Assembly: GCF_016790065.1 (NCBI RefSeq)
Contig: NZ_JAEUPY010000290.1
Location: forward strand, 1 to 39,929
Direction: 5' to 3'
From: Steroidobacter sp.
Lineage (GTDB): Bacteria > Pseudomonadota > Gammaproteobacteria > Steroidobacterales > Steroidobacteraceae
Length of the DNA stretch: 39,929 nt
Below are positions 2,048 to 36,300 of this stretch, in pieces. Position 1 is the first letter of the stretch; each line of letters starts with the position of its first letter. The notes beneath the pieces are model-generated. The model was not told where the DNA came from and did not search any database. It saw only the letters and a program-made list of their open reading frames with translations. The translations under genes were made by a program, and so were the position numbers.

Positions 2048-2073
2048 GACAAGCGCCTCCGACTGGCCAACGT

Positions 2074-3183
<1,110 letters not shown>

Positions 3184-3200
3184 GGGGTTCGGGGGAGTCA

Positions 3201-3228
3201 CCGAAAAGGGGGTTCGGATTCTCCTCCT
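3201..3228 (-). promoter_or_regulatory. Distant strong Shine-Dalgarno plus small hairpin before frmA
   Basis: On the minus strand AGGAGGAG (3228-3221) is followed by CCGAA-CCCCCTT-TTCGG (3217-3201), a 5-bp stem with a 7-base loop that ends on the candidate GTG start at 3201. The SD is 19 bases from that GTG and 37 from the preferred ATG (3183). No other start codon lies at a normal distance. The hairpin could shorten the effective spacing. This is seen in the sequence; its function is inferred. Confidence 0.4.
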
Positions 3229-16828: not shown

Positions 16829-17236
16829 TCAGCCGGGCAACTGGTCCACCCTCGGTACTTTTTCCAACGCTTCGTCCCAGCTTGCCTTACTGGCCACGAA
16901 AATGTGCGCGTTCGGTTTGATGGGGACCGCGGTGTTCAAACTGCCGGCCGGGACGACTAGCAGCGCGCCGTTCATTTGCAGGTTGGGCAGCGCCGAGCCG
17001 CAGATCGAGCAGAACGATTTCGTGTGCCGCGTCGAGGGCAGATTGAAGGTGCTGACCTTGGATTCGCCGGAGAGCCACTGCAAGCGTGCGCTCGATGAGA
17101 ACAGATTCGCGGCGTGTGCCGAACCGGTGTCCTTGCGGCAGTACTCGCAATGGCACAGAAAGAAACAGTCGAAGTCGCCGGCGATTTCGAAACGGACTGC
17201 GCCGCACAGGCAGGCGCCGGAATGGCTATTGCTCAT
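16829..17236 (-). CDS. GFA / CENP-V-fold zinc protein
   Basis: A 135-residue protein of the family named after glutathione-dependent formaldehyde-activating enzyme. The zinc cysteines are all present: CLC (Cys9, Cys11), CHCEYC (Cys28, Cys30, Cys33) and CSICG (Cys76, Cys79). Length is typical. Most family members are not true formaldehyde enzymes and their role is unknown. This gene is 14 kb from frmA/fghA and not in an operon with them, so a link to formaldehyde is not supported. It ends before slyD with an 84-base gap and starts 23 bases after the amidohydrolase gene, so it could be the last or next gene of that transcript. Confidence 0.9.
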   Translation of the reverse strand: MSNSHSGACLCGAVRFEIAGDFDCFFLCHCEYCRKDTGSAHAANLFSSSARLQWLSGESKVSTFNLPSTRHTKSFCSICGSALPNLQMNGALLVVPAGSLNTAVPIKPNAHIFVASKASWDEALEKVPRVDQLPG

Positions 17237-17259: not shown

Positions 17260-19017
17260 TCACTCCGTCTTCGCCGCCGACACCGCTGTGAGTTCTCCAT
17301 AGACCGGCTGGCCGGCGAACAGGGTGACCAGAACCTTGGCCTTGGCGATCTGGGTCGGAGCGATCTTGAACAAGTCCTGATCCAACACCACCAGATCGGC
17401 GCTCTTGCCGACGACGATGGAGCCGCTGCGATCATCGAGGTGAGACGCGTACGCGGCACCGAGGGTGTAGCTCTCGATGGCTTGCTCGAGAGTGACGCGC
17501 TCTTCCGGCGCAAGTAACTCGCCGTCGGTCACGCCCGGAGCCCGACGAGTCAGCGCCACTTCGATGCCTTCGAGCGGATTGGCGGAAGCAACGGGCCAAT
17601 CAGAACCATAAGCCACCCTGCCGCCAGCGCGCGCCAGGCTCATCACCGGATACATATGTTCCATCCGCGCCGGCCCGACGCGAGCACCGACGAGAACCAT
17701 GTAGTCATCCATACAAGCCCACAATGGCTGAAAGATCACAGTCACGCCCAGCTCTTTGAACCGCGGCAGATCGTCCTTCGAAATCAAATTCACATGCGAC
17801 AACAAGGGCCGATGGTCTTTGGCACCATTGCGCTCGCGCGCTTGCGCGAACGCATCCAACGCCGTCCGCACCGCTTGATCGCCAATCGCATGAATATGCA
17901 CTTGAAAACCTTCCGCATCGAGTCGCGTGACCGCATCCTTCAACACGGCGGGCTCGATATGCATCTCACCTTTGAAGCCGGGCATATCGGAATAGGGCTC
18001 GATGAGCGCCGCGGTTCGCTGCGCCGGCACGCCATCCAACAGGAATTTCACCGACTTCGCAGCCACACCCACATCAGCCAATTTCTGCGCGGCGGCGAGC
18101 AGGTCGGGAATCTGCTCCATGCCGCGCTTCGTGTCCCACGCGAGCGCCAGACTCACATGACCTTTCAACGTATCTTTCTGAGCCATCGCGGCGTAAGTCT
18201 GCGGCACACCGGGCGGAATGGCTTGACCCGGGTCAGCGCCGGAAATCGGCACCAGCGCGTCATGCCAACCGACGATGCCGTTGCTGTTGAAATAATCTCG
18301 CGCATAGCCGAGCGCTTGTTCGCGGGCCTTGTCCGACGGCGGCGGCAATTTGCCAACGATCAACTCCACCGCGGCTTCCTGAAACGAGCCGATGGGTTCG
18401 CCTTTCTTGTCCCTGTCGATACGGCCGTTGGGCGGATCCTTGGTGTCTCGCGTGATGCCCGCGACTTCGAGCGCTTTGGAATTCACCCAAATGCCATGAC
18501 CGCCGACATTGGTGAACGCCACCGGCCGATTGGCGACGACGGCATCCAGCAGTTTCTTGTCCGGCACCCCATCGGGTGGAAACAAACCGTCTTTCCAGCC
18601 CGAGCCATGAATCCAACCGTCACCCGGCTCCTCGGCCGCGCACTTGGCAATGATCTTCAGGTAATCCTCCGGCGAGTTACCGTCGTACAGCGCACAGCCG
18701 CTGTGATTCACACCGCCCCACACCGGATGAGTGTGCGCATCATGAAAGGCCGGCAACATGAGCCGGCCTTGCAGATCGACCACTTGAGTCTTCGGACCGA
18801 TGAGAGCACGCGTGTCGTCCTCATTGCCGACTGCGGCGATCTTGCCCGCAACGACGGCGACCGAAGTCGCCGTCGGTTTGGTGGTATCGACGGTATAGAT
18901 ATTCCCGTTCTTGAACACGAGATCTGCAGCCGCACTGCTGGCGGCCGGCGGTTCTTGTTTGGAACACGCCGCCGCCAGAGCGGCAATCGCCATCAACACC
19001 AGTTTTGTGATTCTCAT
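17260..19017 (-). CDS. YtcJ-like amidohydrolase lipoprotein
   Basis: A 585-residue metal-dependent hydrolase of the amidohydrolase superfamily (amidohydrolase_3/YtcJ group). A lipoprotein signal ends in LAAAC (Cys18, followed by Ser), placing it at the outer or inner membrane facing the periplasm. The metal site begins with FHDAHTHPVW (His95, His97). A later His is in FQVHIHAIGDQAVRTALDAF, and the closing Asp is in AYGSDWPVASANPLEGIEVA. The C-terminal beta-sandwich ends with GKSADLVVLDQDLFKI. Related enzymes act on cyclic amides, N-acyl amino acids or exocyclic amines; the substrate is unknown. It lies 17 bases after the TonB-dependent receptor, so the two are co-transcribed: the receptor would import the compound and this enzyme would hydrolyse it at the periplasmic side. 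Confidence 0.9.
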   Translation of the reverse strand: MRITKLVLMAIAALAAACSKQEPPAASSAAADLVFKNGNIYTVDTTKPTATSVAVVAGKIAAVGNEDDTRALIGPKTQVVDLQGRLMLPAFHDAHTHPVWGGVNHSGCALYDGNSPEDYLKIIAKCAAEEPGDGWIHGSGWKDGLFPPDGVPDKKLLDAVVANRPVAFTNVGGHGIWVNSKALEVAGITRDTKDPPNGRIDRDKKGEPIGSFQEAAVELIVGKLPPPSDKAREQALGYARDYFNSNGIVGWHDALVPISGADPGQAIPPGVPQTYAAMAQKDTLKGHVSLALAWDTKRGMEQIPDLLAAAQKLADVGVAAKSVKFLLDGVPAQRTAALIEPYSDMPGFKGEMHIEPAVLKDAVTRLDAEGFQVHIHAIGDQAVRTALDAFAQARERNGAKDHRPLLSHVNLISKDDLPRFKELGVTVIFQPLWACMDDYMVLVGARVGPARMEHMYPVMSLARAGGRVAYGSDWPVASANPLEGIEVALTRRAPGVTDGELLAPEERVTLEQAIESYTLGAAYASHLDDRSGSIVVGKSADLVVLDQDLFKIAPTQIAKAKVLVTLFAGQPVYGELTAVSAAKTE

Positions 19018-19034
19018 CGTGCTTATGCGTCAGC

Positions 19035-21146
19035 TCAGAACTTTTTGCTCACGGTGCCCAGGATGCTGCGCGTCTGGCCCGCCGTGCACATGCCGTCGAA
19101 CGGCACGGCCCAAGCGGAACAGGTGGCGTAATACTCCTTGTCGGCCAGGTTGTTGACGTTGAGCGCCAGACTCCAATCCTTGAAGGTGGCTTCGGCGCTG
19201 GCATCCACCAGCGTGACCGCCGGAGTCTTCTGGATCTGGTAATAGTCCAGCTTGTCGCCGACGCGACGCACGCCCGCACCGAGGCGCATCGTGAGATCGT
19301 TGTTGACGTACAGCATCTGGCTCAACCACAGCGACGCCAGATGATTCGGCAGATCCTCGATACGATCGCCCGCCGGATGCGACGCCGTGCCTTCAAGCAC
19401 TTTGGCATCGGTGTAGCTCCACGCTGCGTTGACGCTCAGCCCCATGCTGAAATTGAACTGCACTTCCAACTCGACACCCTTGGAACCGATCACGCCGCTT
19501 TGAATGAAGTTCTGCAGGTTGTTGGGATCGCTGGTGAGGAAGTTGCTGTCCTCGATATCGAAGTAGGTCGCTGTAATCAGGCTGTTCGAGAACGGCTGCC
19601 ACTTGATACCTGCTTCGTACTGCTCGCCTTCCTGCGGCTTGTAAGCGTTGCCGTAGAAGTCGCCACCAAAGATCGGCGTGAACGATTCGGAATAGCTGGC
19701 GAACGGCGAAACGCCAGGGAGCACTTCGGCGATCACACCGACCTTGAACGTGGTCGCGTTGATCGTGTCCTTCGGGCTCAGCGTGGCTTCTGAAGTGGCA
19801 CGGTCACGACGCGCGCCAAGCACGAACGAGAGCTTCTCGCCGATCTTCATTTGATCTTGCAGATAGATACCCAGCTGCGTGCTGCGGCTATCGAACGCGT
19901 TGCTGTAGCCGTAGTTGAACGACTGCCCGTACACCGGGTTGTAGACGTTCAGTGGAATCGTCATCTGTTCGAAACAGCCGGGATAGTAGAACACGCAGGA
20001 ATAGCCTTCGCGGCGATCCTGTTCGAACAGCGTGTAGTCGATGCCCACCAGCACCTTGTGAGCAATCGGGCCGGTGCGGAAATCGATCTGCGCATGATTG
20101 TCCGAGTTGACGATCTTGTACGAGTCGTCGAGCAGGTAGAACGCACGTGTCAGCGTGGTCCGCGCCGGATCGATGAACGTATCGACGCCGTAGTTGAACG
20201 TCGGGTACACCTCGCCGTAGTCCACATCTTGTTCCAGATAGCGGCTGTTGCTCGACAGCGCCACCGTATCGTTGAAGCGATGATTGACCAGCAGCGACAC
20301 CGACGTCTGCTCGGTGTCCATATGATTGAAGTTCGGCTCGCCGACGAAAAAGTCGATGGGAATCTTCACGTCGCTGCCGCCGGCGTGCAGCGTCTTGGTC
20401 ATGGGCAGGTAGGTCTGCGTGCCCATATCTTCCTTCTGGTACAAGCCGATCAAGGTCACATCGGTGCGTTCGCCAGGCTTCCAGGTGAATGAAGGATTCA
20501 GCACGTACTTGTCGTTGGCCTGGCCTTCCCACATCAGATCGCCGTCGCGAAGCACGCCGACGAAGCGACCGGCAAAGCTCTCGCCCAGTGGGCCGGTGAG
20601 ATCCACCTGCAGCTGTTTGCGATCCCAGTTGCCGGCCTGCAAACCGATCTCGCCACCGAATTCCCATTGCGGCCGTTTGCTCACCGCATTCAACAAGCCG
20701 CCTGAGCTACCGGCGCCGTACAGCACAGCCGACGGGCCGCGCAGCACTTCAGCACGCTCGAGGGTAAATGTTTCCTGAGTCGAGCCGTACAAACCCTTGG
20801 GTGTTTTGTTCAGCCCGTCCAGATACTGCTTCAGCGCGAAACCGCGCGCCGCGAAATAATCCGACCGCGTGTCGCTGCCTGCCAGTTCGGTCGCGACGCC
20901 AGCGGAGTAACGAAACACTTCCTGATAGGTGGTCGCGCCGCGCTCCACAATCTGTTCAGCGGTGATGACACTGATGGATTGCGGAATTTCCACCAGCAGC
21001 GTGTCAGTCTTGGTTGCCGCGCCGGCACGATCTGCGAGGACGGTGACTTCCTCGAGTGTTTCGTTGTCAGCGCCCTGGCTCTCCTGAGCTCGCAGCGCCG
21101 ACGCGAGTGCCAGCGTGCAGGCAACGGCCATCGATATCTTGTTCAT
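19035..21146 (-). CDS. TonB-dependent receptor, siderophore-receptor type
   Basis: A 703-residue outer-membrane transporter. Signal peptide about 1-20 (ends ALRAQ), then a TonB-box-like EEVTVLAD, a plug domain (IPQSISVITAEQIVERGATT, FAARGFALKQYLDGL, LERAEVLRGPSAVLYGAGSSGGLLNAVSKRP) and a 22-strand barrel ending in SILGTVSKKF with the usual terminal Phe. The plug resembles FpvA/FhuE-like siderophore receptors, but no signalling domain and no siderophore genes are near. The ATG has GGGGAG seven bases upstream. A 128-base gap separates it from the permease gene, so it could have its own promoter. Genomic company (amidohydrolase, NCS1 permease, hydantoinase-like enzymes) points to import of a nitrogen heterocycle or a metal complex of one rather than a classical siderophore. 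This is inference. Confidence 0.93.
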   Translation of the reverse strand: MNKISMAVACTLALASALRAQESQGADNETLEEVTVLADRAGAATKTDTLLVEIPQSISVITAEQIVERGATTYQEVFRYSAGVATELAGSDTRSDYFAARGFALKQYLDGLNKTPKGLYGSTQETFTLERAEVLRGPSAVLYGAGSSGGLLNAVSKRPQWEFGGEIGLQAGNWDRKQLQVDLTGPLGESFAGRFVGVLRDGDLMWEGQANDKYVLNPSFTWKPGERTDVTLIGLYQKEDMGTQTYLPMTKTLHAGGSDVKIPIDFFVGEPNFNHMDTEQTSVSLLVNHRFNDTVALSSNSRYLEQDVDYGEVYPTFNYGVDTFIDPARTTLTRAFYLLDDSYKIVNSDNHAQIDFRTGPIAHKVLVGIDYTLFEQDRREGYSCVFYYPGCFEQMTIPLNVYNPVYGQSFNYGYSNAFDSRSTQLGIYLQDQMKIGEKLSFVLGARRDRATSEATLSPKDTINATTFKVGVIAEVLPGVSPFASYSESFTPIFGGDFYGNAYKPQEGEQYEAGIKWQPFSNSLITATYFDIEDSNFLTSDPNNLQNFIQSGVIGSKGVELEVQFNFSMGLSVNAAWSYTDAKVLEGTASHPAGDRIEDLPNHLASLWLSQMLYVNNDLTMRLGAGVRRVGDKLDYYQIQKTPAVTLVDASAEATFKDWSLALNVNNLADKEYYATCSAWAVPFDGMCTAGQTRSILGTVSKKF

Positions 21147-21274
21147 CCTTCACTCCCCATAGGCTGATCTTGCTAGAAATCGTCAGCATTCATCGCAAGC
21201 TATGGCGGGGGATCGACGCTGACTAGCCCACTACCCATCGCTGCTACTCAACTACCCGGGCACGGGTCGTTCGT

Positions 21275-22525
21275 TCATACCCCTCTATTGCGTGACCACA
21301 CGCCGTAAATCACTGAAGCAACCAGCGTTGCATCGAGTGCCGGTACGGTGGTCAGCGTGAAATAACCTGCGTTGGCGAGCAGTGCGATGCCGGCGGATAC
21401 GGTCCAAGTCACAATTGCCGGCCAATGCACCGGCGCGGAGCTGTTGTTGCCGCGGAATGCGTCAATGACGTAGATGGCGGCAATCGGCGGAATGATGGCG
21501 CCGAGCAACAGCAGGAACGAAACAAACGCATCCAGAATGCCGGCCACTGCCACCAGCGCGCCTAGCACGCCGGCGATCATCGTAAATTTCCATTGCGCGA
21601 CGCTGGGGAAGGTCGCCGTCAAACTCAAACTGGCCGAATATAGATTCGCGGAATTGATGGTCCAGGTGGATAGGATCAGCACCAACAGCGCCGGCACACC
21701 GAGCCCGAAGCCGATGATCAGGCGCATGATGTCGATCTCGCCCGTCGCCAGCACTGGAATCGCTGCAGCCAAGGTCAGCAACGGCGTCGCGACTGGGAAC
21801 GACAACACCATGCCGAGCACGGATTGTTTCGCCGAACGGATGTATCGAGTGAGATCCGGCATGGCTGCGACCGTGAGCATGTTGCCGCCGATCAACGCAG
21901 ACAGCGCGATACCAAAACTCATCGGCTCCGGTGGCGTCGGATCCGGCGCGGCGACGATGCCGTAACGACGCACCGCCATCACCACAACCGTGCCGAGGAT
22001 TACGCCGAGAATGGGCACCGCAATCAGTGCCAGCCGATCGAGCGCTTTGAAGCCATAGATCGTCGTGATGGCCATCAGCACACCACCGATCAGCACGAAG
22101 GCGGCGAACGGTCCTGACACGCCCAGCACTTCCTGAGTGCCGGCCACCATGGCATTACCGAAGAACGCCGCGTTCACGCCGAACCAACCGAAGTGCACGA
22201 ACGCGATGGCAATGTTCACCAGCGCCGCCCCTTGCCGCCCGAACGAACGCTGCACCAGCAGATAAGTGGTGAGCCGAGTACGGACACTGACGACCGCCGT
22301 GAAGCACCCCATCACACACAGCAGAACGCCGGCGAGTAGTGCCACGACGAACGCTTGTCGCAAGCCCAACGCAGACGAGATCTGTGCGCTACTGAGGAAG
22401 CTCGGCAGCGAGATCGCGAAACCCGTCAATATCATCGCGACGCGCCAGCCGCCGACCGTCTCACTCTCTGGCACTGGCGCGTTGGCGAAGTGCTCAGTCT
22501 TGGATTCGAGGGTCGTGCTGGCCAT
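21275..22525 (-). CDS. NCS1-family nucleobase/hydantoin permease (CodB-like)
   Basis: A 416-residue, twelve-helix inner-membrane symporter of the NCS1 family, which imports cytosine, purines, allantoin, hydantoins and thiamine precursors. The N-terminus ETVGGWRVAMILTGFAISLPSFLSSAQISSALG and the YGFKALDRLALIAVPILGVI segment fit the CodB-type subgroup. Length is typical. It begins six bases after the DUF917 gene stop, with its ribosome-binding site (GGGTGGAAA) inside the end of that gene, so it is translationally linked to the DUF917/hydantoinase pair. It probably imports their substrate. Exact substrate not readable; no cytosine deaminase is present, which argues against cytosine. Confidence 0.9.
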   Translation of the reverse strand: MASTTLESKTEHFANAPVPESETVGGWRVAMILTGFAISLPSFLSSAQISSALGLRQAFVVALLAGVLLCVMGCFTAVVSVRTRLTTYLLVQRSFGRQGAALVNIAIAFVHFGWFGVNAAFFGNAMVAGTQEVLGVSGPFAAFVLIGGVLMAITTIYGFKALDRLALIAVPILGVILGTVVVMAVRRYGIVAAPDPTPPEPMSFGIALSALIGGNMLTVAAMPDLTRYIRSAKQSVLGMVLSFPVATPLLTLAAAIPVLATGEIDIMRLIIGFGLGVPALLVLILSTWTINSANLYSASLSLTATFPSVAQWKFTMIAGVLGALVAVAGILDAFVSFLLLLGAIIPPIAAIYVIDAFRGNNSSAPVHWPAIVTWTVSAGIALLANAGYFTLTTVPALDATLVASVIYGVWSRNRGV

Positions 22526-22531
22526 GCGTCG

Positions 22532-23656
22532 TTATTTCCACCCGTTGAGCTCAGCAATCGACCGATACGGTCCCGGTAGCCTGAAGGCATCGGGCCCGAG
22601 TACCGCCAATGCCTCAGCGGTTCGCAAAGCCTGCGGCGCACTGGCGCCGACGACTTTTACGCGCTGACCGTATTTCAAACATTCAGTCACGATGGTCTCG
22701 GCCGTTTCGCGGTCGAGAATGCTGATGATGTCCGGCACCAGCGCCCGCACTTCACCGTTCAAGCGCGCGATCAGGTTTTCGTTTTTGAATTCGACCTCGA
22801 GGCGCTGACCGCCGCCGAATGCGTCAATCACCGCTCGGCCCACCGAGAAGCCATTGCGCGTCTCGCGTTGCAGATCGACGATCTTGCCGTCGAACAACAC
22901 GCCGGCGTGATCGAACTGACGCGAGTACTTCAACGCTTCGAACAGCGCGGCAAACGGATCGCGACCACTTTCGCGGGCCAGACGAATACTGCGACCGATA
23001 CTCAGCGCGTCCGAAATCGTGCCGCGCAGAGCATTCGCCTTCATGTCACGAGCGAAGGCAGCATATTCGATGAGATGGCAAGAACCACCCAAGATCACCG
23101 ACGCGGCGCGCGCCAAACGCTCTTCGCTCACGTTGTCGACGGTCTCGAGCACCACACAGTTGCCCTTGTCGTCGGTGAGAATGGCCGGCGCCGCCTGCTG
23201 GCCGCGAATATTGAAAATGACCATCTGCGATTCGGGAAACGCGCGACCCATGCCGTCGCAATCCGCCACCGGCAACCCCGCTCGAATGCCCAGCAGAAGC
23301 GCGGCCAGCCCGTTGCTGCCGCCCACTTCCACCGGCATCACCGCGTCCACTCGGCGACCGGCGATCTGTTCGAGTCTGCGCAAGCCCTGCAAAGCCTCGC
23401 GGCCACTGGGCAATTTCTCCACTGAAATGGTGGGCGCGCCGATCCAACCGCAAGGCGCGACGAACGCATCGTCGGGCAGGGAGGCGATGTCGATCAACTC
23501 GATGACACCGCCATCGGCCAACGCCGCTTCGATCTCCATGAACGTGGTGTGCGGATCGCCGCCGCCACCCGAGCCCAAGAAGGCACAGCCGCGCGCCAGA
23601 TCGGCGACGTCGTCGATGCCCAAGCTATATGTTTTCAAAGCAGACGACGCGCTCAT
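22532..23656 (-). CDS. DUF917 protein (S-methyl-thiohydantoin-desulfurase-like family)
   Basis: A 374-residue cytosolic protein of Pfam DUF917 (PF06032). As far as I recall this family was renamed after an S-methyl thiohydantoin desulfurase; I cannot check that here. The N-terminus has the family pattern LARGCAFLGSGGGGDPHTTF (about 19-38), followed by SLPDDAFVAPCGWIGAPTIS and a MPVEVGGSNGLAALLLG stretch. The C-terminal domain includes ALVPDIISILDRETAETIVTE. DUF917 genes are commonly paired with, or fused to, hydantoinase/oxoprolinase-like ATPases, as here: the start overlaps the hydantoinase stop by four bases (ATGA). The two products probably form one enzyme complex acting on a five-membered ring amide or thio-derivative. 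Function inferred from neighbours. Confidence 0.88.
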   Translation of the reverse strand: MSASSALKTYSLGIDDVADLARGCAFLGSGGGGDPHTTFMEIEAALADGGVIELIDIASLPDDAFVAPCGWIGAPTISVEKLPSGREALQGLRRLEQIAGRRVDAVMPVEVGGSNGLAALLLGIRAGLPVADCDGMGRAFPESQMVIFNIRGQQAAPAILTDDKGNCVVLETVDNVSEERLARAASVILGGSCHLIEYAAFARDMKANALRGTISDALSIGRSIRLARESGRDPFAALFEALKYSRQFDHAGVLFDGKIVDLQRETRNGFSVGRAVIDAFGGGQRLEVEFKNENLIARLNGEVRALVPDIISILDRETAETIVTECLKYGQRVKVVGASAPQALRTAEALAVLGPDAFRLPGPYRSIAELNGWK

Positions 23657-25212
23657 GCGGCACTCATCGCCAGATCCCCGACCACCTTGGCGCGGATCTG
23701 CACCGTGTTGCCCGGGAAGTAAGAAAGATACGTTTCTTCGACGTCCACCAATCGTACCGTGTTGGCGTCGGCGCCGGCCGCAACGGCCTGCGCGGTCGCT
23801 TCACGCTCGATATCTTGCAAGGCCACAGCACGCTCTTGATGATCGTACGCGACGATGCGATCCACTTCGGCGCCGACTTGAGCGATTGCCGCGCCGACCG
23901 CGTTAGCCACCGCAGCGTGATCCGGCTTGATGACCCGCGACGCGCCCTTCAGCTCAGGCGGCACCAGAATACTGCCACCACCCACCAGCACGACGGGCAC
24001 ATCGGCAGCCGCTGTCTTCATACGATCGATGCCGTCTTCGAGCGTTTGGCGAAAGCGCGCCAGAATCTTTTCCATAACCGCGGGCTGCAGCGATGGAATT
24101 CGTGCGGGATCACCGAAGCTCGCGAGGCCCGCCTTCACCGCGATGTCGCTGGCGGTGAGCGTGTTGCCGCCGAACAGATACGCATCTTTCGCCAGCTGAT
24201 AACCGACCGAGTCCGGACCGATGGCGCGCACGTCGCCGTCGTCATCGAGATGAATTCGCGTACCGCCGCCCAGCCCGATGGACAACACGTCGGGCATTCG
24301 GAAGTTGGTACGAACGCCGCCGATGTTCACAGCAATGGAAGATTCGCGCGGAAAACCATGCACCAATGCACCGATGTCAGTGGTCGTGCCACCGATGTCC
24401 ATCACGATGGCATCGTGAATTCCAGTGAGAAACGCCGCGCCACGCATGCTATTGGTGGGACCCGAGCCGAGCGTCAGCACCGGATACTGAGCGGCGTACT
24501 TCGCTGAGATCAGCGTGCCGTCGTTCTGACTCACATACAACGGCGCGTTGATACCCATCTCGGCAAAAGCGGCCGAGAAGGAAGCCATCACATGCCGCGC
24601 CACTCGCGCTAATGCGGCGTTCAGAATGGTGGCGTTCTCGCGCTCGAGGAAACCGATACGGCCGAGCGCACTCGACATCGTTACAGCGATGTCCGGAGCA
24701 ACTTCTTTTACTAGCGCCGCGGCGCGTTGTTCCATCGAGCGGTTGATCGGCGAGAACACGCAGGAGATGGCAATGGACTGCAAGCCTTTACGTCGCAGCT
24801 GAAGCGCCGCGTCGCGGACCGCGTTCTCGTTGAATAGAGTGTTTTCCTGGCCATCGAACTCGTAGCCGCCGGGCAGTTGGAAACTCGTGCCGCCGATGCA
24901 ACGCTTCAAGTCGTCGGGCCAGCCGCTCATCGGCGGCAAGGCTTCGCCGGCCGCCCCGGCCAGCCGCAGTACCCCGACGCCCAACAAGCCTTTGCGCTCG
25001 ACCAACGCATTCACGAAATGAGTCGTGCCGATCATCACGCCTTCGATGGCGGATGTACTGACGGCCGCCGCATCGAGCACAGCGCGAGTGGCATTCACGA
25101 TGCCACTACTCACGTCGCCGGTGGTCGGCCGCTTTGCTGAAGCCAACACGGTGCGTCCCGCGACCAGAACGGCGTCCGTATTTGTGCCCCCCACATCGAT
25201 ACCTAATCGCAT
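23653..25212 (-). CDS. Hydantoinase/oxoprolinase-family ATPase subunit (HyuA-like)
   Basis: 519 residues from the ATG at 25212 (MRLGIDVGGTNTDAVLVAGR), which is the normal start of the family. A 21-codon in-frame extension upstream is Pro/Arg-rich and runs into the divergent promoter. The fold is an ASKHA-type kinase/ATPase: phosphate loops at IDVGGTNTD (5-13) and, mid-protein, DIGGTTTDIGALVHG. The DPARIPSLQPAVMEKILARF and VLVGGGSILVPPELKGASRV segments are family landmarks. Such proteins use ATP to open hydantoin, oxoproline or N-methylhydantoin rings, usually with a partner. Here the partner is the overlapping DUF917 gene rather than HyuB. Shorter than full-length oxoprolinase, as typical for this DUF917-associated group. 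Confidence 0.92.
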   Translation of the reverse strand: MRLGIDVGGTNTDAVLVAGRTVLASAKRPTTGDVSSGIVNATRAVLDAAAVSTSAIEGVMIGTTHFVNALVERKGLLGVGVLRLAGAAGEALPPMSGWPDDLKRCIGGTSFQLPGGYEFDGQENTLFNENAVRDAALQLRRKGLQSIAISCVFSPINRSMEQRAAALVKEVAPDIAVTMSSALGRIGFLERENATILNAALARVARHVMASFSAAFAEMGINAPLYVSQNDGTLISAKYAAQYPVLTLGSGPTNSMRGAAFLTGIHDAIVMDIGGTTTDIGALVHGFPRESSIAVNIGGVRTNFRMPDVLSIGLGGGTRIHLDDDGDVRAIGPDSVGYQLAKDAYLFGGNTLTASDIAVKAGLASFGDPARIPSLQPAVMEKILARFRQTLEDGIDRMKTAAADVPVVLVGGGSILVPPELKGASRVIKPDHAAVANAVGAAIAQVGAEVDRIVAYDHQERAVALQDIEREATAQAVAAGADANTVRLVDVEETYLSYFPGNTVQIRAKVVGDLAMSAA

Positions 25213-25349
25213 ATGGGCCAGTCTACGTGGCCGGCTCGACGGGCCCGCCGCTAAGACGGGTAACGGCTGCCCCACCGGTGGGCAGTCGGGCGTCGGCGAT
25301 GGGTAGCGCCGTTGATTTGCTATGCTCGACCCAGTCCCCGGAACGTACC
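25213..25349. promoter_or_regulatory. Divergent promoter region of the hydantoinase locus
   Basis: 137 bases between the start of the hydantoinase-like gene (minus) and the LuxR-type regulator (plus). Contains a perfect 12-base palindrome, CCCACCGGTGGG (25271-25282), extendable with CTG/CAG arms over one bulge (25267-25285). A TATGCT box at 25321-25326 may be the regulator's -10; no good -35 is visible. Confidence 0.5.
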
Positions 25350-28049
25350 ATGGCCTCCCCTGTGAACAGCCTCGGTGATCCGATACTCACCAAGATCGCA
25401 CCTTCGGCTCGGCCAGCCAGTCAGCACGTGCCGCGCGAGACGCTGTTGCATCGGCTGGACGAGGTCGTGTGCCACCGGCTGACCTTGCTGCATGCCCCGG
25501 CCGGTTACGGCAAGACCAGCCTGCTCGGCCAGTGGCATCGCTTGCTGGCGGAACGCGGCATCGAGGTCGCCTGGCTGACCCTGGAAGAAGAAGAGTCAGA
25601 CGCCGCCCGCTTCGCCGAGTATCTGATGGCGGCTATCGGCGGCAGCAACAGCGGCGAAAGCATGCCGACGCGGGCGGCGCTGTCCGCCATCGTGAATCGC
25701 TTGTCGCTCGCCGAACGCGACACCGTACTGATCCTCGATGACTTCCATCGCGCCGAGAGCGAAGCGGTTTGTCATTTCGTGCGCGGCTTGATCAAGTTGG
25801 CCCCGCCCCGGCTGCACATCGTGATTGCTTCCCGCGATTATCCGAATCTGGGTCAGGCGGTGCTCGCAGCCAACGAAGACCTGGTCGAGATCGGCATCGA
25901 AGATCTCAAGTTCACGCTCGACGAGGCGCAGCTGATGTTGAGTCGTGGCGCGTCGGTGCCGCTGGCCGAGGATGACATCGCTCGGCTGCTGAAGCGCACC
26001 GAAGGCTGGCCCATTGCATTACAGATGACGGCCCTGTCGTTACGTAAAGGCTGCGACCGAGCCGAGCTGATCGCCAATTTCTCCGGGCCGGCGTGGGAGC
26101 TGGCGAGCTATCTATCCGAACAGGTGTTGGCCAGTTTGCCGCCGGATATCGAGAGCATCATTACGCGCACGGCCATTCTCGAACGGCTGAACGGCGACCT
26201 GGTCAATCTGCTCTGCGAGCGCAGCGACGGCCAGCTGATGCTGGAGCAGCTGGAAAAGCAGAATCTATTTTTGCTGCCGCTGGATGCTCAGCATCTCACT
26301 TATCGTTATCACCAGCTGTTCGCCCAGATCCTGCGAGATCGACTCGTGCGTCGCGATCCGGCGGCGTTTCGGCAGTTACATCGCAAGGCCGCGCATTGGT
26401 TCAGCACTCATGGCCAGATTGCCGAAGCCGTCGGTCATGCCATCGGCGCGGCGGATGAAGAGTTTCTGGCCGTCATCCTCGACGATGCCGGCGGCTGGCG
26501 CATGATTCCCGAAGGACGAATGGAAACGCTGATCGCCGGCCTGGCGCATCTGTCCAGCGCCACCATCGCTCGTTTCCCGCGCTTGCAACTGGCCAATGTT
26601 TATCGGCTGATCAAGCAGGGGCAGATGACCACGGCACGCACCAGTTACGATGCGTTCCGCAATTCCATGGAACGCTCCAGTCTGCCCGCAGATCTTTGGA
26701 CCGAGGTGAATCTGGTCGGCGAAGTGCTCTCCGAATATGAGAACACGCCGGTGCGGCTCGAAGATCTGCTGGCCAAAGAAGCGCTGATCCTGAGTTTGCC
26801 GTCGCACGATCACTTGATGCTCGCCAATGTGTGCGAATCGCTGGGCGAGAAGTATTGCGATTGTGGCTGGCTGGAGCGAGCGCTCGAACCGACCCGGCGA
26901 GCACGCGAACACCATCGTGCGCTCGGCTCTCTCTACGGCGAAATGTTTGCTCGCCTGCTGGAAGCTCGGATCCGGCTAGCACAGGGTCGACTGGATGAAG
27001 CGCAGGTGGTGCTGAAGGAAGCCGCCGCGGATATTCATCACAACTACGGCCCGCGCTCCGACCTTGCCGCAAACTGCGCCGTGTATCAGGCGGAAACCCT
27101 GTTCGAACGCGATGCCGTCGACGAAGCCTCGGCCTTGCTCGACTGGGCTTTGCCGCACATGGAACAGTCGGACGGCTGGTTTGAGATTTATGCCTCAGGC
27201 TTTTGCACCGCCATTCGCGCCGCTTTCGGCAACAGCCCTGCGGAGGCTGAGCGCATGCTCATGCGGATGCGCACGATTGCCGGCCGGCGACATCTGACCC
27301 AGTTGCAACTGCTTGCGGACGTGTATGAAGTCGAGTCGCTGATCCATGCCGGCCGTAACGACGCCGCGCGCGAGCGCGCCGATGAAATCGGCATGAGTTC
27401 GCTGGCCGCGGCCATGAGCGAAGAAGTGCCCGCTTACCGGCACATCGCCCTCGCCGCTTCAGTGTGTCTCGCCAAACTGCATCTATGCGCCGGCGATCAT
27501 CAGGCAGCGATGGCTGAAATCGACAGTACCGAGCGCTGGGCCCGCAAACACGGCCAAAGCCGCTTGCTGATCACTTTGTGCATTCTCGCCGCGCACGCGC
27601 ATCGTCTGGCGAAGGCGCCGGAGCAAGCGATCACTCGCTTCGACGAAGCGGTGAGCATGTCCATGTTTCAGGGCTTCATCAGCCCGTTCCTGGATTGCTG
27701 GCGCTTCATCAGCATCTCGGCCACCATCGATGCGCGCCACGCCACTGCGCGCAACACCGATCGCTTCCGTGAAAATTTCTTGCGACGGCTACGCAAATCT
27801 TTGGAGCGGCATTCAGCGCAGAGTCGCGAAGCCACGTTGCTGAGCGGGCCGGAGCTGTCTGCTTTGCGTCACTTGGATCAGGGCTACACCAATAAAGAGA
27901 TTGCGCGACTGCTCAAGATTTCGCCCAACACGGTGAAGTATCACTTGAAGTCGCTTTACGAAAAACTCGGCGTGAATTCTCGCCGCGACGCCGTCCGGCT
28001 GTCGCGGGAGCAGAAGCTGCTGGACGGCGCGTCGGACGAGTCACATTAA
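25350..28049 (+). CDS. MalT-like LuxR-family transcriptional regulator
   Basis: An 899-residue STAND-type regulator from the ATG at 25350 (MASPVNSLGDPILTKIAPSA). The start 72 codons upstream would run into the hydantoinase gene and is Arg/Pro-rich, so I reject it. Domains in order: NTP-binding with Walker A HAPAGYGKTSL (about 48-58), the RPRE-like VPRETLLHRLD, Walker B TVLILDDFHRAES; a winged-helix region (about 270-370); TPR-like helical repeats (about 400-800); and a C-terminal LuxR helix-turn-helix (LDQGYTNKEIARLLKISPNT, then VKYHLKSLYEKLGVNSRRDA). Like MalT it should bind ATP and a small inducer, oligomerise and activate transcription. It is divergent from the hydantoinase operon across a 137-base gap and is the obvious candidate for its activator. 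Inducer unknown. Confidence 0.92.
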   Translation: MASPVNSLGDPILTKIAPSARPASQHVPRETLLHRLDEVVCHRLTLLHAPAGYGKTSLLGQWHRLLAERGIEVAWLTLEEEESDAARFAEYLMAAIGGSNSGESMPTRAALSAIVNRLSLAERDTVLILDDFHRAESEAVCHFVRGLIKLAPPRLHIVIASRDYPNLGQAVLAANEDLVEIGIEDLKFTLDEAQLMLSRGASVPLAEDDIARLLKRTEGWPIALQMTALSLRKGCDRAELIANFSGPAWELASYLSEQVLASLPPDIESIITRTAILERLNGDLVNLLCERSDGQLMLEQLEKQNLFLLPLDAQHLTYRYHQLFAQILRDRLVRRDPAAFRQLHRKAAHWFSTHGQIAEAVGHAIGAADEEFLAVILDDAGGWRMIPEGRMETLIAGLAHLSSATIARFPRLQLANVYRLIKQGQMTTARTSYDAFRNSMERSSLPADLWTEVNLVGEVLSEYENTPVRLEDLLAKEALILSLPSHDHLMLANVCESLGEKYCDCGWLERALEPTRRAREHHRALGSLYGEMFARLLEARIRLAQGRLDEAQVVLKEAAADIHHNYGPRSDLAANCAVYQAETLFERDAVDEASALLDWALPHMEQSDGWFEIYASGFCTAIRAAFGNSPAEAERMLMRMRTIAGRRHLTQLQLLADVYEVESLIHAGRNDAARERADEIGMSSLAAAMSEEVPAYRHIALAASVCLAKLHLCAGDHQAAMAEIDSTERWARKHGQSRLLITLCILAAHAHRLAKAPEQAITRFDEAVSMSMFQGFISPFLDCWRFISISATIDARHATARNTDRFRENFLRRLRKSLERHSAQSREATLLSGPELSALRHLDQGYTNKEIARLLKISPNTVKYHLKSLYEKLGVNSRRDAVRLSREQKLLDGASDESH

Positions 28050-28161: not shown

Positions 28162-28163
28162 GT
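28135..28163 (+). promoter_or_regulatory. hipBA promoter
   Basis: TTGCAA (28135-28140, 4/6 match to -35), a 17-base spacer, TATAGT (28158-28163, 5/6 match to -10). The transcript should start about 28170-28171, on the ATG of hipB, i.e. a leaderless mRNA. The boxes lie inside the right half of the dyad. Confidence 0.6.
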
Positions 28164-28170
28164 GTCTGGT

Positions 28171-28440
28171 ATGGATACTGTTCTGCTACAGAGCCCGTCG
28201 CAGCTCTCCGTGCATCTGAAATCTCTGCGTAAATCGCGCAATCTGACTCAGGCCGAGATGGCCAAGCGCCTGCAGATTACACAGGAACGCTACTCCCAGA
28301 TCGAGCGCAATCCGGAGCTGATCGCCACCGGCCGACTGCTGGAAATTTTCGCCGTGCTCGGCGTGGATGTTCTACTCAAAATACGCACGGCGCCGGGAGC
28401 CTCTACGTCTTCGCCGACCCACCAAGGTGAGGACTGGTGA
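28171..28440 (+). CDS. hipB: HipB-like XRE-family antitoxin
   Basis: An 89-residue helix-turn-helix protein from the ATG at 28171. A GTG at 28162 is also in frame but lies inside the predicted -10 box. The XRE-type HTH covers about residues 13-60, with recognition region LTQAEMAKRLQITQERYSQI and the conserved ERNP turn. The C-terminus after residue 70 is short and polar. It should bind the dyad at 28086-28161 to repress its own operon and neutralise the HipA kinase. The stop TGA overlaps the GTG start of hipA by three bases (GTGA), so the two are co-translated. No ribosome-binding site precedes the ATG, in keeping with leaderless start. Confidence 0.9.
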   Translation: MDTVLLQSPSQLSVHLKSLRKSRNLTQAEMAKRLQITQERYSQIERNPELIATGRLLEIFAVLGVDVLLKIRTAPGASTSSPTHQGEDW

Positions 28441-29801
28441 GCACACTTGGCGTGTGGATGAACGGCCGCTACGTCGGCGCCTGGGAACAGGTGCGCGGTG
28501 GACGGGACCGTTTCAGCTATGACGCAGCATGGCGATCCGATCCGCACAGCCGCGCTCTATCGCTATCGTTGCCGATGACCTCGGACGCTGCGATCACCAG
28601 TGCAGCGGTGGGCAACTATTTCGACAACCTGCTACCGGACAGTCAGGGCATCCGGGATCGAATCCAGGCGCGTTTCAACGCGCGCTCCGCCAATACGTTC
28701 GATCTGCTCGAGGCCATCGGTCGCGATTGCGTCGGCGCCGTACAGCTACTACCGGAAGGCGAAGCTCCGAATGGCTGGGACAAGATCAATGTTCAGCGCC
28801 TGCAGCCCAAGCAGATTGAAACTATTTTGCAAGCGGTGCCGACTGCGTCAGCGCCGCTGTTGAATAGCACCGGTACGGCCGATGATTTCCGCATTTCACT
28901 CGCCGGTGCGCAGGAGAAGACCGCACTGACCAAGATCGGCCGTCATTGGTACAAGCCATTGGGCTCGACACCGACGACTCACATTCTAAAGCTGCCGCTG
29001 GGACTGGTCGGCAACCGCCGACTCGATCTTTCGCATTCCGTCGACAATGAGTGGCTGTGCGCCGCGTTGTTGGCAGAGCTGGGATTACCCGTGGCGAACA
29101 CGGACATCGGCCGCTTCGGCGAGCAACGTGTGCTGGTCGTGGAGCGTTTCGATCGTCGCTGGCAGAACGTCGGTGACGGCAATCCGTACGCAGCCAACTT
29201 CAAACCGCGTAGAAATACCTGGATCGCGCGGCTGCCTCAGGAAGATTTCTGCCAGGTCACCGGACGCCCGCACACTGCGAAGTACGAGAGCGAAGGCGGC
29301 CCATCGATACGCGACATCCTGAATGAGTTGGCACGCGCCGAACATCCAGCTTTGGATCAGCGTCGCTTCCTGCTCGCCCAGTTGGCATTCTGGATACTTG
29401 CAGCGACCGACGGACACGCCAAGAATTTTTCCGTCTATCACAGTCGCGGCGGCGGCTTCAGCTCGACGCCGCTGTACGATGTCTTGTCGACCTGGCCTGT
29501 GGTTGGTAAGCGCGCCAATCAGCTCGATATTCGCGAGTTACGACTCGCGATGGCCATTCGCGGCAAGAGTGCTCACTACAAAATCGCCGAGATCCAGCCC
29601 AGGCACTTCCTGGCGCTTACGCAGCTATATCCGGACGCGGAAGCCTGGCCGGCGATGATCGAATTGGCGGGTCGCGTCGAGGAGGCGCTCGAGGCCGTAG
29701 AGAAACGGCTACCGAAAGGCTTCGCGGAGTCAGTGTGGGCCCCGCTATCCAAGGGGGCCCTCGCTCAAGCGAAATCGTTTCTTGCTGTCGCGAACAAGTA
29801 A
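28437..29801 (+). CDS. hipA: HipA-family serine/threonine kinase toxin
   Basis: A 454-residue toxin kinase. In E. coli, HipA phosphorylates glutamyl-tRNA synthetase and causes growth arrest and persistence. GTG start at 28437, coupled to hipB. N-terminal couple_hipA domain about 1-120 (VWMNGRYVGAW ... VGNYFDNLLPDSQGIRDRI). The glycine/serine loop RISLAGAQEKTALT contains Ser154, equivalent to the autophosphorylated Ser150. The catalytic loop is ATDGHAKNFSVY (Asp325, Asn330), and the metal-binding Asp348 is in LYDVLST. All catalytic residues are present, so the toxin is probably active and needs its antitoxin. Length is close to E. coli HipA (440). The gene ends 18 bases before the convergent glmS stop. 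Confidence 0.95.
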   Translation: MSTLGVWMNGRYVGAWEQVRGGRDRFSYDAAWRSDPHSRALSLSLPMTSDAAITSAAVGNYFDNLLPDSQGIRDRIQARFNARSANTFDLLEAIGRDCVGAVQLLPEGEAPNGWDKINVQRLQPKQIETILQAVPTASAPLLNSTGTADDFRISLAGAQEKTALTKIGRHWYKPLGSTPTTHILKLPLGLVGNRRLDLSHSVDNEWLCAALLAELGLPVANTDIGRFGEQRVLVVERFDRRWQNVGDGNPYAANFKPRRNTWIARLPQEDFCQVTGRPHTAKYESEGGPSIRDILNELARAEHPALDQRRFLLAQLAFWILAATDGHAKNFSVYHSRGGGFSSTPLYDVLSTWPVVGKRANQLDIRELRLAMAIRGKSAHYKIAEIQPRHFLALTQLYPDAEAWPAMIELAGRVEEALEAVEKRLPKGFAESVWAPLSKGALAQAKSFLAVANK

Positions 29802-33319: not shown

Positions 33320-36300
33320 TCAATGGCCCGGCGGGCGCTCGTCGGCGAACCAGGGGGCATCCGGGCGCCGCGGCGTCGGCCACAACTCCTCCAGCGAGCC
33401 GGCGTCGTAGAGCCGGCCGTTTTTCATCACCAGGGTCGGATTCCGGGTACGACGAATGTCGTCCCTCGGGTCGGCCTCGAGCACCACCAGGTCGGCAAAC
33501 TTCCCCGGTTCGAGACTGCCAAACTCAGCCACCCGCCCGATGGCCTGCGCGCCTCCCAAGGTACCGGCACGCAGCGCTTCCATGGGCGTCATCCCGCCCT
33601 GCACATGCGCCTCCAGCTCCCAATGAAAACCCGCCCCCTGGATCTCGCCATGCGAGCCGATGGCAGTCACGCCGCCGGCCCGCTGGATGCGCGCCACGTC
33701 ACCGCCGATGCGTGGATAGAGCAGGGTCGACGGCTCGATCCACTCGCGTGACAGTGCTTGTTGACCGGCGATGTAGTCGGGCCGGAGGCGTCGATATTTC
33801 TGATCCATGAACGGCCGGTCGCGAATCACGAAATTGTCCTGCGCGCCCGGACCGCCGTTCTTGATCTGCAGCGTCGCGTCGTAACTCGTGCCACTGCGCG
33901 CCACCAATTGGATGACGTCGTTATAAAGCGGCGTCGGCAACGCGTGCTCGTTGCCCGCGTAGCCATCCATGATTTGAGTCAAATCCAACTTCAACGACAG
34001 CGAGCCTTCGGTGGTCGGCATCATGCCGAGATCGGACGCGGCCTGGATCAGCCACTGCCGCCGCTCACGATTGCCGATCAGATATTGCTTCACGTTACGT
34101 GTTCGATAGTGATCGCGATAACGCGTCAGCAAAGCGCGCGCCTCGTCGACGGAAGCAAGCCGATTGAATGAAAACATCGCCGTGCCCGTGCTCGGCACTC
34201 GCGAGCCCACCAGAACTCCAGCATCGCCCAGGTCCTGATAGGCAAACATGTCGATGCTGAGCGTGGATGGATCGAATGCAGTGGTGACGCCATACGCCAA
34301 GCGCGCTCGCAATCCCCAGCTCTCCATCGCAATCACGTCGCGACGAATATCGGCCACATGATCGTGGACATCGATGAAGCCTGGGAGGATGGTCTTGCCC
34401 GTGACATCACGCACTACCGTACCCGCAGGAAGCTTGAGCGATCCACGCGAGCCGACAGCTGCAATCCGTCCGTCGCGAATCAACACATCGCCGTCTTCGA
34501 TCACTTCCGAGTCTCGCATCGTGATAACGCGAGCACCGCGCAGTACCAGGCCGCCGCGAGGATCGTCGCGAGGCACTTCGACGACTGCCGGGAACGAAGC
34601 GACTCCGCGCTTCGGCACATCGGCAGTCCAGCTCGGGCTGGTTGCAAAGTTGAGCTTGATGTCGGCGAGCGAGCGCCGATAAAACGTCGAGCCCACCGAC
34701 CAAGTCACGGTCTTACCGGCGTCGGCCCATTCGATGAAGTCCGCGCCGACAGCGGTGATGCGTCGATGCTCGCGACCAGGATTGAGCAGATCGACGACTT
34801 GGCCAGGCTCTGGTGCAGCGAGCACATGCGCCTGCTGAGCAATGATCGCCAGCACCCACTTGCCGTCCGGACTCAGCCGGCTGTCATCCACTTGTGCCAA
34901 CGATTCGGCGAAGTACCAGTTCGGCCCCTGCACGTTGACAGCGGGTTTGATCTCGCCGCTGGTGAGGTCAACGCTGCTCAAGCCCGCAGCCTGACGCACG
35001 TAAACCAGATTCGGATTCGCGGCGAAATGCGGTTTGCCGCCGAACGTTCCGCTAGCGATGACTTTCACTGCGCCACCATCGACGGGCAGTGCGACCAGCG
35101 TCGCTTCTCGAACGTGTTGACCGAACTCCATCGAGCTGTGCAACCGCGCTTGGTTGTCCGAACGAACCACGAGGACGGACTTGTCGTCGGGCGTGAAGAT
35201 GGGATGTGAGTAGTAGCCAGCAACATCACTAATCGGCTTGGGCTCGCCGCCGGTCGCAGGAACGACCCACACTTGCCCGGCTTGTTTTGCAGTCCAGGTG
35301 ATGAAAGTCAGTTGTTTGCCATCGTGCGACCAGCTCGGATGAAACTCAGGCGTCTGACCCGACGTGAGCCGCCGCGGCTTGGCGCCACTTTTGAGCGACA
35401 TCACATACAAATGACCGAGCGAAGAAAACGCCACGTGCTTGCCGTCCGGCGACTGCTCGGGCGATTGAATGAGCCGCGCGCGTACCGGACCGGTTTCCTG
35501 TTTGATGGCAACTCGTGTCTGGGGACCAAGTTGCACGTCGACGGTGGCTTGGAACGGAATCGCCGTGCTGGCGCTGCCATCGATGGGCAGCTTCTCCAGC
35601 TTGCCATTGCGACTTACGATCACCGCGCGACCGTCGCGAGTGAAGGCGTAGCGCGGCACGAGATCTTGCCAACTCTGCGCATGAATCTGATCGTGCTCGA
35701 TAGGAAACGCGAGCCAGCGATCTTCATTGGTTTCCAAGTTGCGCAGGCGCAGACCGGTCTGACCTTCGTAGCGAGTGGCATACGCCAGCAGCTGACCGTC
35801 AGGTGAAAGTGCGGGACGGAAATACGCACCAGGAGCACGACCCCGTGCCATTGCTGGCGGCAACAAAGTTTTCTCCGTGCCGCTGTCTAACTCACGACGC
35901 ACGATGGACCAATCATCCACCTTGTGGTCGTTCGATGTGCCATCGCGGCGTGCGAAATAAAGATACTTTCCATCCGACGATGCGACTGCGCCAAGCGAAC
36001 TCTTGCCACTGTCGCGCGGCTGGCCGGGTGATTTGATCGGCACGATCAGTGTCTCGGTGCCATCCAGATCGTAGCGCCACAGTTGATAGCTGTCGGCGCT
36101 CCATAGAAAACGACTCACGTAGATTGCTTTGCCGTCCGCACTCCACGCCGGCGAGACCAGCACGCTGTTGTCGCCACCCAAACTGATTTGTTTGAGCTCG
36201 GAGCCATCGGGCCGCATCACCCAGACGTTCTCGGCACCGGAGCGATCGCTGACGAAGGCAAGCCACGCACCGTCGGGCGAGTAGGTCGGCTGTGTGTCGA

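Follow-up and report, generated by a model that had tools for sequence, protein, structure and literature searches.

We analysed a 39,929-nucleotide stretch of Steroidobacter sp. DNA (contig NZ_JAEUPY010000290.1, henceforth referred to as ‘the window’, which is contig C404 of an 8.5-Mb assembly, G000) that carries a TonB-dependent receptor gene beside genes for a predicted ring-opening ATPase and its partner, and which an earlier reading of the letters (henceforth referred to as the ‘original prediction’) had described as an apparently complete route for a hydantoin-like compound. Pfam and NCBIfam profile searches of the window proteins recovered all six predicted open reading frames (ORFs) and their families, five on the minus strand and one divergent from them. 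The minus-strand genes encode a lipoprotein amidohydrolase (Amidohydro_3; 17260-19017; PF07969, 339.1 bits), a TonB-dependent receptor of the siderophore-receptor class (19035-21146; TIGR01783, 329.8 bits), an inner-membrane permease of the NCS1 family (Transp_cyt_pur; 21275-22525; PF02133, 74.9 bits), a DUF917 (now S-Me-THD) protein (22532-23656; PF06032, 184.8 bits, and PF20906, 181.4 bits) and a short HyuA-type ASKHA ATPase of 519 residues with Hydant_A_N and Hydantoinase_A domains, here called HydA (23653-25212, with the conserved start). The plus strand carries a MalT-like regulator with an AAA-TPR-LuxR helix-turn-helix architecture (25350-28049; PF17874, 59.7 bits, and PF00196 (GerE), 57.3 bits). 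In the longest ORFs HydA reaches 25275 and the regulator begins at 25134; the conserved starts lie at 25212 and 25350, so that the two genes overlap only in the longest-ORF reading and in fact diverge over 137 bp. The predicted overlap of the ATPase and DUF917 genes is real and amounts to 4 bp, a geometry found in the four Steroidobacter loci and two others among 12 loci measured; five of the 12 have an overlap of 11-71 bp (longest ORF start used), and in L032 another gene lies between the two. The receptor and amidohydrolase genes are 17 bp apart, and since the NCS1 and receptor genes are separated by 128 bp, two or more transcription units are possible. Scans for sigma-70 promoters and terminators gave no more matches than shuffled sequence does.

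The main new result is a conserved array of short, operator-like GGGTAG/GGGTAA boxes at both promoters of the locus, across two bacterial classes. Array 1 lies on the plus strand in the gap between the regulator and HydA genes (25258-25306) and consists of GGGTA at 25258-25262, GGGCA at 25280-25284 and GGGTA at 25301-25305, with a pitch of 22 and 21 bp; none of 2000 dinucleotide shuffles reached the observed count. Array 2 lies on the minus strand upstream of the receptor gene (21232-21282), with GGGTA at 21278-21282, 21253-21257 and 21232-21236, the first of these boxes falling within the 3' end of the NCS1 gene; the pitch of this array is 25 and 21 bp, compared with 21 and 21 bp in three orthologues, and the count observed for the part within the gap was reached by 10 of 2000 shuffles. 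Beyond the arrays, the 39.9-kb window contains only two further GGG[TC]A pairs spaced by 20-25 bp. The motif and its spacing were first noticed in gap alignments of four Steroidobacter loci, and the spacing range was fixed after this first look. With these settings, GGG[TC]A pairs were found in 16 of 17 upstream regions, where shuffled sequence leads one to expect 0.004-0.028 per region. The Steroidobacter regions are orthologous and hence not independent, and because the motif was drawn from them the Alphaproteobacterial regions are the fairer test: eight of these nine contain a pair. GGGTA pairs at 20-24 bp number 21 in ten window-type loci, and 19 of them stand upstream of HydA or the receptor; the remaining two are both in a Sphingopyxis locus (L047), one in the amidohydrolase/MocR gap, upstream of the amidohydrolase, and one before a gene for a 231-residue protein. 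Other spacings are almost empty, except for 40-44 bp, which represents the same arrays counted two boxes apart. Thus, the receptor and the ring enzymes look co-regulated, and the boxes common to both promoters, together with the MalT-type domains of the divergent gene, support the suggestion that the locus has a regulator of its own.

Related boxes were also detected at paralogous loci. A variant, CGGGTAGG, with a spacing of 22-23 bp precedes HydA in seven of 19 paralogous loci linked to a TonB-dependent receptor (six of 17 distinct contigs, as L027/L115 and L024/L119 are, judging by their length, the same contigs), which corresponds to 8 pairs in 355 kb, the control mean being 0.6. In the remaining 67 loci of the HydA-DUF917 type there was one pair in 1.14 Mb, compared with 2.0 in the control. 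Inverted GGGTAG boxes were seen in L026, L038 and L052.

We next consider how the genes are distributed. Some DUF917 homologue is present in 19 of the 60 genomes searched (the window’s own genome included), and beyond that genome a DUF917 gene of the window type is present in only three of the 60 (G001, G003 and G010; 86-89% identity). Among the 14 genomes of the genus, orthologues of the amidohydrolase (at least 74% identity), the receptor (at least 87%) and the regulator (at least 87%) each occur in four, own genome included, and these are the same four that carry the window-type DUF917 gene. In all four the six genes form a single block with the same order; the HydA and NCS1 orthologues were seen within these blocks, the other congeners not having been searched separately for them. 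The regulator tally rises to seven of 14 when weaker relatives (27-35%) are counted, and the window’s own genome contains a second, partial relative of the amidohydrolase at 52%. A gene pair for an aldehyde dehydrogenase and an SDR protein joins the set in G001 (L021), G003 (L023), L042, L043, L046 and L047, and is present neither in the window block nor in G010; a close orthologue of this aldehyde dehydrogenase was not found in the window genome, where the best match was 45-47%. The description of the locus as a complete route was consequently too strong. In the same genome, a paralogous set of regulator, HydA, DUF917 and TonB-dependent receptor genes lies on contig C908 (L038; 1407-12495), adjoins genes for the arabinosylfuranosidase ArfA (822.5 bits, cut-off 625) and a GH127-type protein, and is conserved on contig C2 of G003 (L025). 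On contig C3 of G003 (L030; 7889-11750) a HydA gene lies between two DUF917 genes (34% and 42%), and ORFs for receptor and MalT-like proteins are close by.

Outside the genus, a contig scan of one genome per species, covering 84,980 species, returned at least 592 pattern matches, of which at least 503 were confirmed as DUF917 relatives, and neighbourhoods were compared for the best 80 of these at least 503 loci. Among the matches listed, the closest loci outside Steroidobacter are Alphaproteobacterial. Henriciella aquimarina (L042), Sphingosinicella (L043) and Sphingomonas formosensis (L048) each carry the full set of six genes inside a region of about 13 kb, with identities of 56-58% for HydA, 54-57% for DUF917, 52-55% for NCS1, 46-48% for the regulator, 46-50% for the amidohydrolase and 36-48% for the receptor, and with gene orders and strands that differ from those of the window. 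The Sphingopyxis locus contains five of the genes, with a 36% receptor about 9 kb past NCS1, and two short contigs hold four of the six (L044) and five of the six (L046, its amidohydrolase match being only 33%). The Sphingomonas tagetis locus (L045; 1020-12390) has DUF917, NCS1, the same amidohydrolase and a FauA/FhuE-like receptor, adjoined by a LysR gene and an M24 peptidase gene. In a tree built by a quick method (87 rows, with L048 left out and L021 represented by L041), the HydA proteins of nine window-type loci group together as a single clade (SH-aLRT 99). At one to a few Alphaproteobacterial loci each, the set is further accompanied by genes for an amidase, an esterase, an MFS acid transporter, regulators of the IclR and MocR types, a PepSY_TM protein, a CoA-transferase and an FAD amine oxidase close to N-methyltryptophan oxidase. 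Overall, the search for the same neighbourhood that the original prediction had called for supports a single functional module: within the genus DUF917, receptor, amidohydrolase and regulator are present together or not at all, and the set is rebuilt in another class in other gene orders. In the best 80 loci, a HydA-type match of at least 44% adjoins DUF917 in 77; the exceptions, where such a match is weak or missing, are L045, L053 and L064, the last being a short contig. In Actinobacterial loci (e.g. L061, L063, L065 and L067), two or three DUF917 genes come after HydA and an NCS1 permease gene is located upstream; these four showed no match to the window receptor or regulator.

HydA scores above the cut-offs of both ATPase families (PF05378, 124.6 bits; PF01968, 112 bits) and contains both phosphate motifs, DVGGTNTD and DIGGTTTD, as do all of 12 HydA sequences compared. 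It is presumed, from these domains, to be an ATP-dependent, cyclic-amide-activating subunit. It shares the ATPase domains and phosphate-binding motifs with CapAB, HyuAB and 5-oxoprolinase, and like them is paired with a second protein that putatively finishes the hydrolysis. However, HydA falls about 170 residues short of the CapA model with its 689 positions and reaches 117.3 bits against a cut-off of 1000 for caprolactamase subunit alpha (NF050156); its partner is a DUF917 protein in place of HyuB or CapB; and a TonB-dependent receptor and a lipoprotein amidohydrolase are attached to the locus. The DUF917 protein belongs to the S-Me-THD family, since PF06032 and PF20906 both score above gathering, and its predicted fold is that of 2o3i: an AlphaFold model (pLDDT 86) matched 2o3i in Foldseek with an E value of 3.3e-21 and a TM score of 0.78, and 2o3i is the sole fold match in the PDB below an E value of 0.001 (the next other match is at 0.039). 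An alignment of 10 sequences shows conserved Asp, Glu and Lys residues. Although the thiohydantoin and S-methyl thiohydantoin desulfurases belong to the same Pfam family, the protein scores only 78 bits against the cut-off of 440 for the former (NF058529) and 88.7 against 450 for the latter (NF058532). None of the 28 window proteins scanned contains a Hydantoinase_B (HyuB), carbamoylase or urocanase-type domain; these are results for the window, to which the search for the first two domains was confined.

The receptor passes the TIGR01783 subfamily cut-off (223.5 bits) and stays below the equivalog cut-offs for FhuA (364.6 of 803 bits) and FoxA (341 of 1300 bits). Its nearest solved chain is the FetA-type enantio-pyochelin receptor 3qlb (333.9 bits), followed by the CntO, FoxA and FhuA receptors, to which it is similar in class and over nearly its full length; it differs from these in lying within a ring-opening set beside a MalT-like gene and in having no Fur-like site in the window. 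The amidohydrolase has a lipobox-like motif, AAAC, at residues 15-18; some lipobox-like motif is present in all four Steroidobacter amidohydrolases and in L042 and L043, and none was seen in L045, L047 and L048; the enzyme is presumed to be periplasmic or anchored in the outer membrane. The NCS1 protein passes the Pfam cut-off for PF02133 (74.9 versus 23.5 bits) and stays below those for the cytosine permease NF008241 (183 versus 326) and for TIGR00800 (82.8 versus 353.1), its nearest solved chain being the cytosine permease 7qoa (124.8 bits). The regulator has TPR_MalT and GerE domains and scores 336.8 bits against MalT (NF003420), below the equivalog cut-off of 537. The MalT regulon of E. 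coli has short direct boxes, in multiple copies, at a number of promoters that belong to a single uptake and catabolic set. The architecture of the regulator and the repeated boxes at multiple promoters resemble that arrangement, binding by the regulator being putative here, whereas the score, the GGGTAG/GGGTAA box with its 20-25-bp pitch and the genes served are different.

We also considered whether the arrays extend beyond the locus. A triple pattern modelled on the window gap has two matches in the 8.5-Mb genome, one being the window gap itself and the other on contig C672, and its reversed control has none. The pair pattern GGGTARN{13,17}GGGTAR has four matches in this genome: at the window receptor promoter, at the paralogous HydA promoter on C908, upstream of an esterase gene on C581 (46% identical to the esterase of L042) and upstream of a PQQ-dependent alcohol dehydrogenase gene on C422. 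The esterase array is kept in G003, where the gene is 79% identical; an esterase of this type was not found in G001 or G010 at an E value of 1e-30. The dehydrogenase array is kept in G010 (gene 85% identical) though the sequence of the spacer has changed, while none of 18 loci of homologues elsewhere has a GGGTA pair, including three at 65-68% in genomes without a window-type locus. In the Alphaproteobacteria the pair matches cluster on the locus contig: four of six within 13 kb in Henriciella, four of seven within 22 kb in Sphingosinicella, five of six within 29 kb in Sphingopyxis and three of four within 2 kb in S. formosensis; off-locus matches include C45 and C108 of G060, C8, C15 and C33 of G061 and C160 of G062. 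In the window’s own genome, the arrays seem to extend to two genes outside the locus, for an IroE-like esterase and a PQQ alcohol dehydrogenase.

Taking these results together, we consider that the locus is probably the core of a ligand-induced regulon for scavenging and opening an exogenous cyclic amide that is part of a molecule whose size or scarcity keeps it from entering through porins. The siderophore-class receptor would import the compound into the periplasm, where the membrane-anchored Amidohydro_3 enzyme would trim it, and the NCS1 permease would take the ring part to the cytosol. There, HydA would spend ATP to phosphorylate and so activate the ring amide, the mechanism proposed for caprolactamase and 5-oxoprolinase. 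Its partner from the overlapping gene, DUF917, would take the place of a HyuB subunit in finishing the ring opening. This step is inferred by analogy with CapAB, for which one proposed mechanism, in the excerpted text of PMC8453981, has the lactam phosphorylated in the ATP subunit and hydrolysed in the metal subunit. The MalT-like regulator would sense the compound or a product of it and activate both transcription units through the two-turn GGGTAG/GGGTAA arrays, its putative operators. Candidate ring classes are lactams, cyclic imides, hydantoins and diketopiperazines. A larger, perhaps metal-binding, ester-containing cyclic amide is a serious candidate for the substrate, because the receptor is of the siderophore class and relatives carry IroE-like esterase and PepSY genes.

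Several observations weigh against this interpretation or parts of it. The 128-bp gap upstream of the receptor permits its separate control. The S. tagetis locus contains, over 21 kb, no match to HydA and none to the MalT-like regulator, and DUF917 may act there without the ATPase. The L046 gap is the one among the 17 upstream regions that lacks an array, and the strict pair is missing in 11 of the 17 distinct paralogous receptor-linked loci (12 of the 19 as fetched). The GGGS motif of HydA was matched by pattern in eight of 12 sequences and unmatched in four. No histidine is conserved across the 10 DUF917 sequences, whereas the CapB metal site is given in the excerpted text of PMC8453981 as an Asp-His-Asp-His tetrad, so DUF917 is not a copy of that site. 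Genome-wide, the reversed-pattern control gives as many pair matches or more in most genomes, and of ten congeners without a window-type locus, eight have 0-4 matches and two have 9 and 40. Similarly, an explanation could be given for only one of three pair matches in S. agaridevorans (G064), two of three in G010 and three of five in G003; matches with no sensible ORF context are at C2:620625 and C6:86065 of G064, C2:1195691 of G003, C22:1112624 of G010 and C35:333569 of G063. As controls and locus-free genomes give similar numbers, the pair pattern was rejected as a genome-wide counter; a match counts only for where it lies, for being part of a triple array or for being conserved. As regards individual genomes, dispersed GGGTAATGATTAGGGGGTAGGGGGTAG-like or GGGTAG-rich repeats explain most of the 40 matches in G012 and the 9 in G007, the single match in G006 is a paralogous HydA promoter, and one match in G003 (C2:560922) adjoins an FMN reductase gene.

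The alternative that survives best, which we hold to be possible and clearly less probable than the scavenging of a cyclic amide, is that what enters is a siderophore-like molecule with bound iron or another metal, and that release of the metal is as important as the supply of carbon or nitrogen: once imported by the receptor, the complex would be dismantled by the esterase, the PepSY protein and the ring enzymes. The class of the receptor and its resemblance to the enantio-pyochelin, CntO, FoxA and FhuA receptors agree with this, as does the FauA/FhuE-like receptor of the S. tagetis locus. The L042 esterase is nearest to BES, the TAFC esterase and the enterobactin/IroE esterases, and its relatives are found in L044, in L047 and at an array in the window’s own genome; PepSY_TM genes adjoin arrays in L043 and L047. 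However, the window block itself contains neither a PepSY nor an IroE-like gene, receptors of the TIGR01783 class also accept non-iron ligands, and NCS1 permeases are not known to be part of siderophore uptake systems. Moreover, a search for Fur-like palindromes within 3 mismatches (Fur only, one palindrome consensus) found none in the window, and control by Fur through a site of this kind was rejected for the window. Conserved as a set, with shared arrays and no Fur-like box in the window, the genes give no sign of either objection named in the original prediction, a lack of conservation or a separate, for example iron-dependent, control of the receptor. The guess of a metal-bound substrate made there may be right: the receptor class and the IroE-like esterases beside or within the presumed regulon fit a larger, possibly metal-binding, ester-containing molecule at least as well as a hydantoin. 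A more specific version, which we offer as speculation and regard as improbable, is a bacterial route for eating fungal hydroxamate siderophores with a cyclic-dipeptide core, with the MalT-like regulator replacing Fur. Fungal hydroxamates with such a core are those of the coprogen, dimerumic acid and rhodotorulic acid type. The receptor would import them, an enzyme like IroE or the TAFC esterase would cut the ester-linked units, the amidohydrolase or amidase would remove acyl groups, HydA and DUF917 would constitute an ATP-dependent diketopiperazine-opening enzyme, and the siderophore would induce the set. The excerpted text of PMC3852281 leaves unclear which enzymes are responsible for diketopiperazine degradation. 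A paper on the breakdown of siderophores, PMC11800396, deals with amphibactins and contributes no evidence here.

It is unlikely that the set serves to remove a bioactive compound, such as an antibiotic, a signal or a fungal toxin, instead of feeding on it. Ring opening and esterases would inactivate bioactives of the diketopiperazine or lactam type, and the mosaic distribution (four of 14 congeners) is in keeping with such a function; but the aldehyde dehydrogenase, SDR, CoA-transferase, MFS acid transporter and amine oxidase genes of related loci fit consumption better, and actively importing a poison would be an odd defence. Slightly less likely still is an ordinary hydantoin, thiohydantoin or pyrimidine route for a small substrate, as the family names might suggest from the adjoining NCS1, hydantoinase-family ATPase and S-Me-THD-family genes. 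No specific desulfurase, caprolactamase or cytosine-permease cut-off was reached and the 28 window proteins include no HyuB or carbamoylase domain, so a hydantoin or thiohydantoin substrate is not supported; the TonB-dependent receptor is also conserved with the set, and small hydantoins should pass porins. Thus, of the original prediction, the TonB-fed module with its own regulator stands, whereas the substrate is unproven. Finally, that the receptor/amidohydrolase pair is a chance neighbour of the permease and HydA genes is very improbable and was rejected: the 128-bp gap does separate the halves and the families are common (first-look candidates in G000/G003 were 95/88 for the amidohydrolase and 316/230 for the receptor), but the all-or-none distribution in the genus, the reordered conservation in another class and the shared arrays argue otherwise.

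DUF917 relatives are widespread, as the at least 503 confirmed loci indicate, and it is puzzling that a short HyuA should be paired with them rather than with HyuB. NCBIfam names two desulfurase groups among DUF917 proteins; a 2024 paper calls these proteins not experimentally characterised in its excerpted text, which also places DUF917 with hydantoin-related genes and transporters in cyclodipeptide-oxidase clusters and suggests hydrolysis of a hydantoin-like ring (PMC11055893). The term ‘TonB’ is absent from the main text of that paper. The locus described here differs in that no cyclodipeptide oxidase was noticed, no search having been aimed at one. In PMC full-text literature we found no description of a combination of TonB-dependent receptor, hydantoinase and NCS1 genes, no pairing of MalT-like and TonB-dependent proteins and no matching account of the regulator and operator; judged by title, papers on thiohydantoin and ergothioneine do not treat this route either. 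Since it comes with a candidate regulator and operator, the TonB-linked branch offers a direct handle on the inducer and hence on the substrate class, and further members of the regulon can be predicted from the array. Were the ligand indeed a large cyclic-amide natural product, it would represent a new substrate class for TonB-dependent catabolism.

The surroundings of the block contain further genes. An HTH_3 and HipA pair (28162-29801) lies beside the regulator; a HipA gene (44%) occupies the same place in G003 (L023), a different ORF does so in G001 (L021) and there is none in G010 (L022), so this place is possibly an insertion spot. A GFA-domain gene (16829-17236) is directly downstream of the block, and a PF00756 esterase gene (1202-2047), 15 kb away, adjoins a zinc alcohol dehydrogenase gene (region 1202-3201). 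The esterase presumably resembles S-formylglutathione hydrolase, and we take the 1202-3201 region and the GFA gene to be possibly a formaldehyde set, for which no connection to the arrays was seen. On the other side of the block, a second TonB-dependent receptor gene (36732-38996) adjoins a gene for a 1102-residue protein that combines a PD40 beta-propeller with an amidohydrolase (33320-36628), and thus forms another receptor/amidohydrolase pair in the window.

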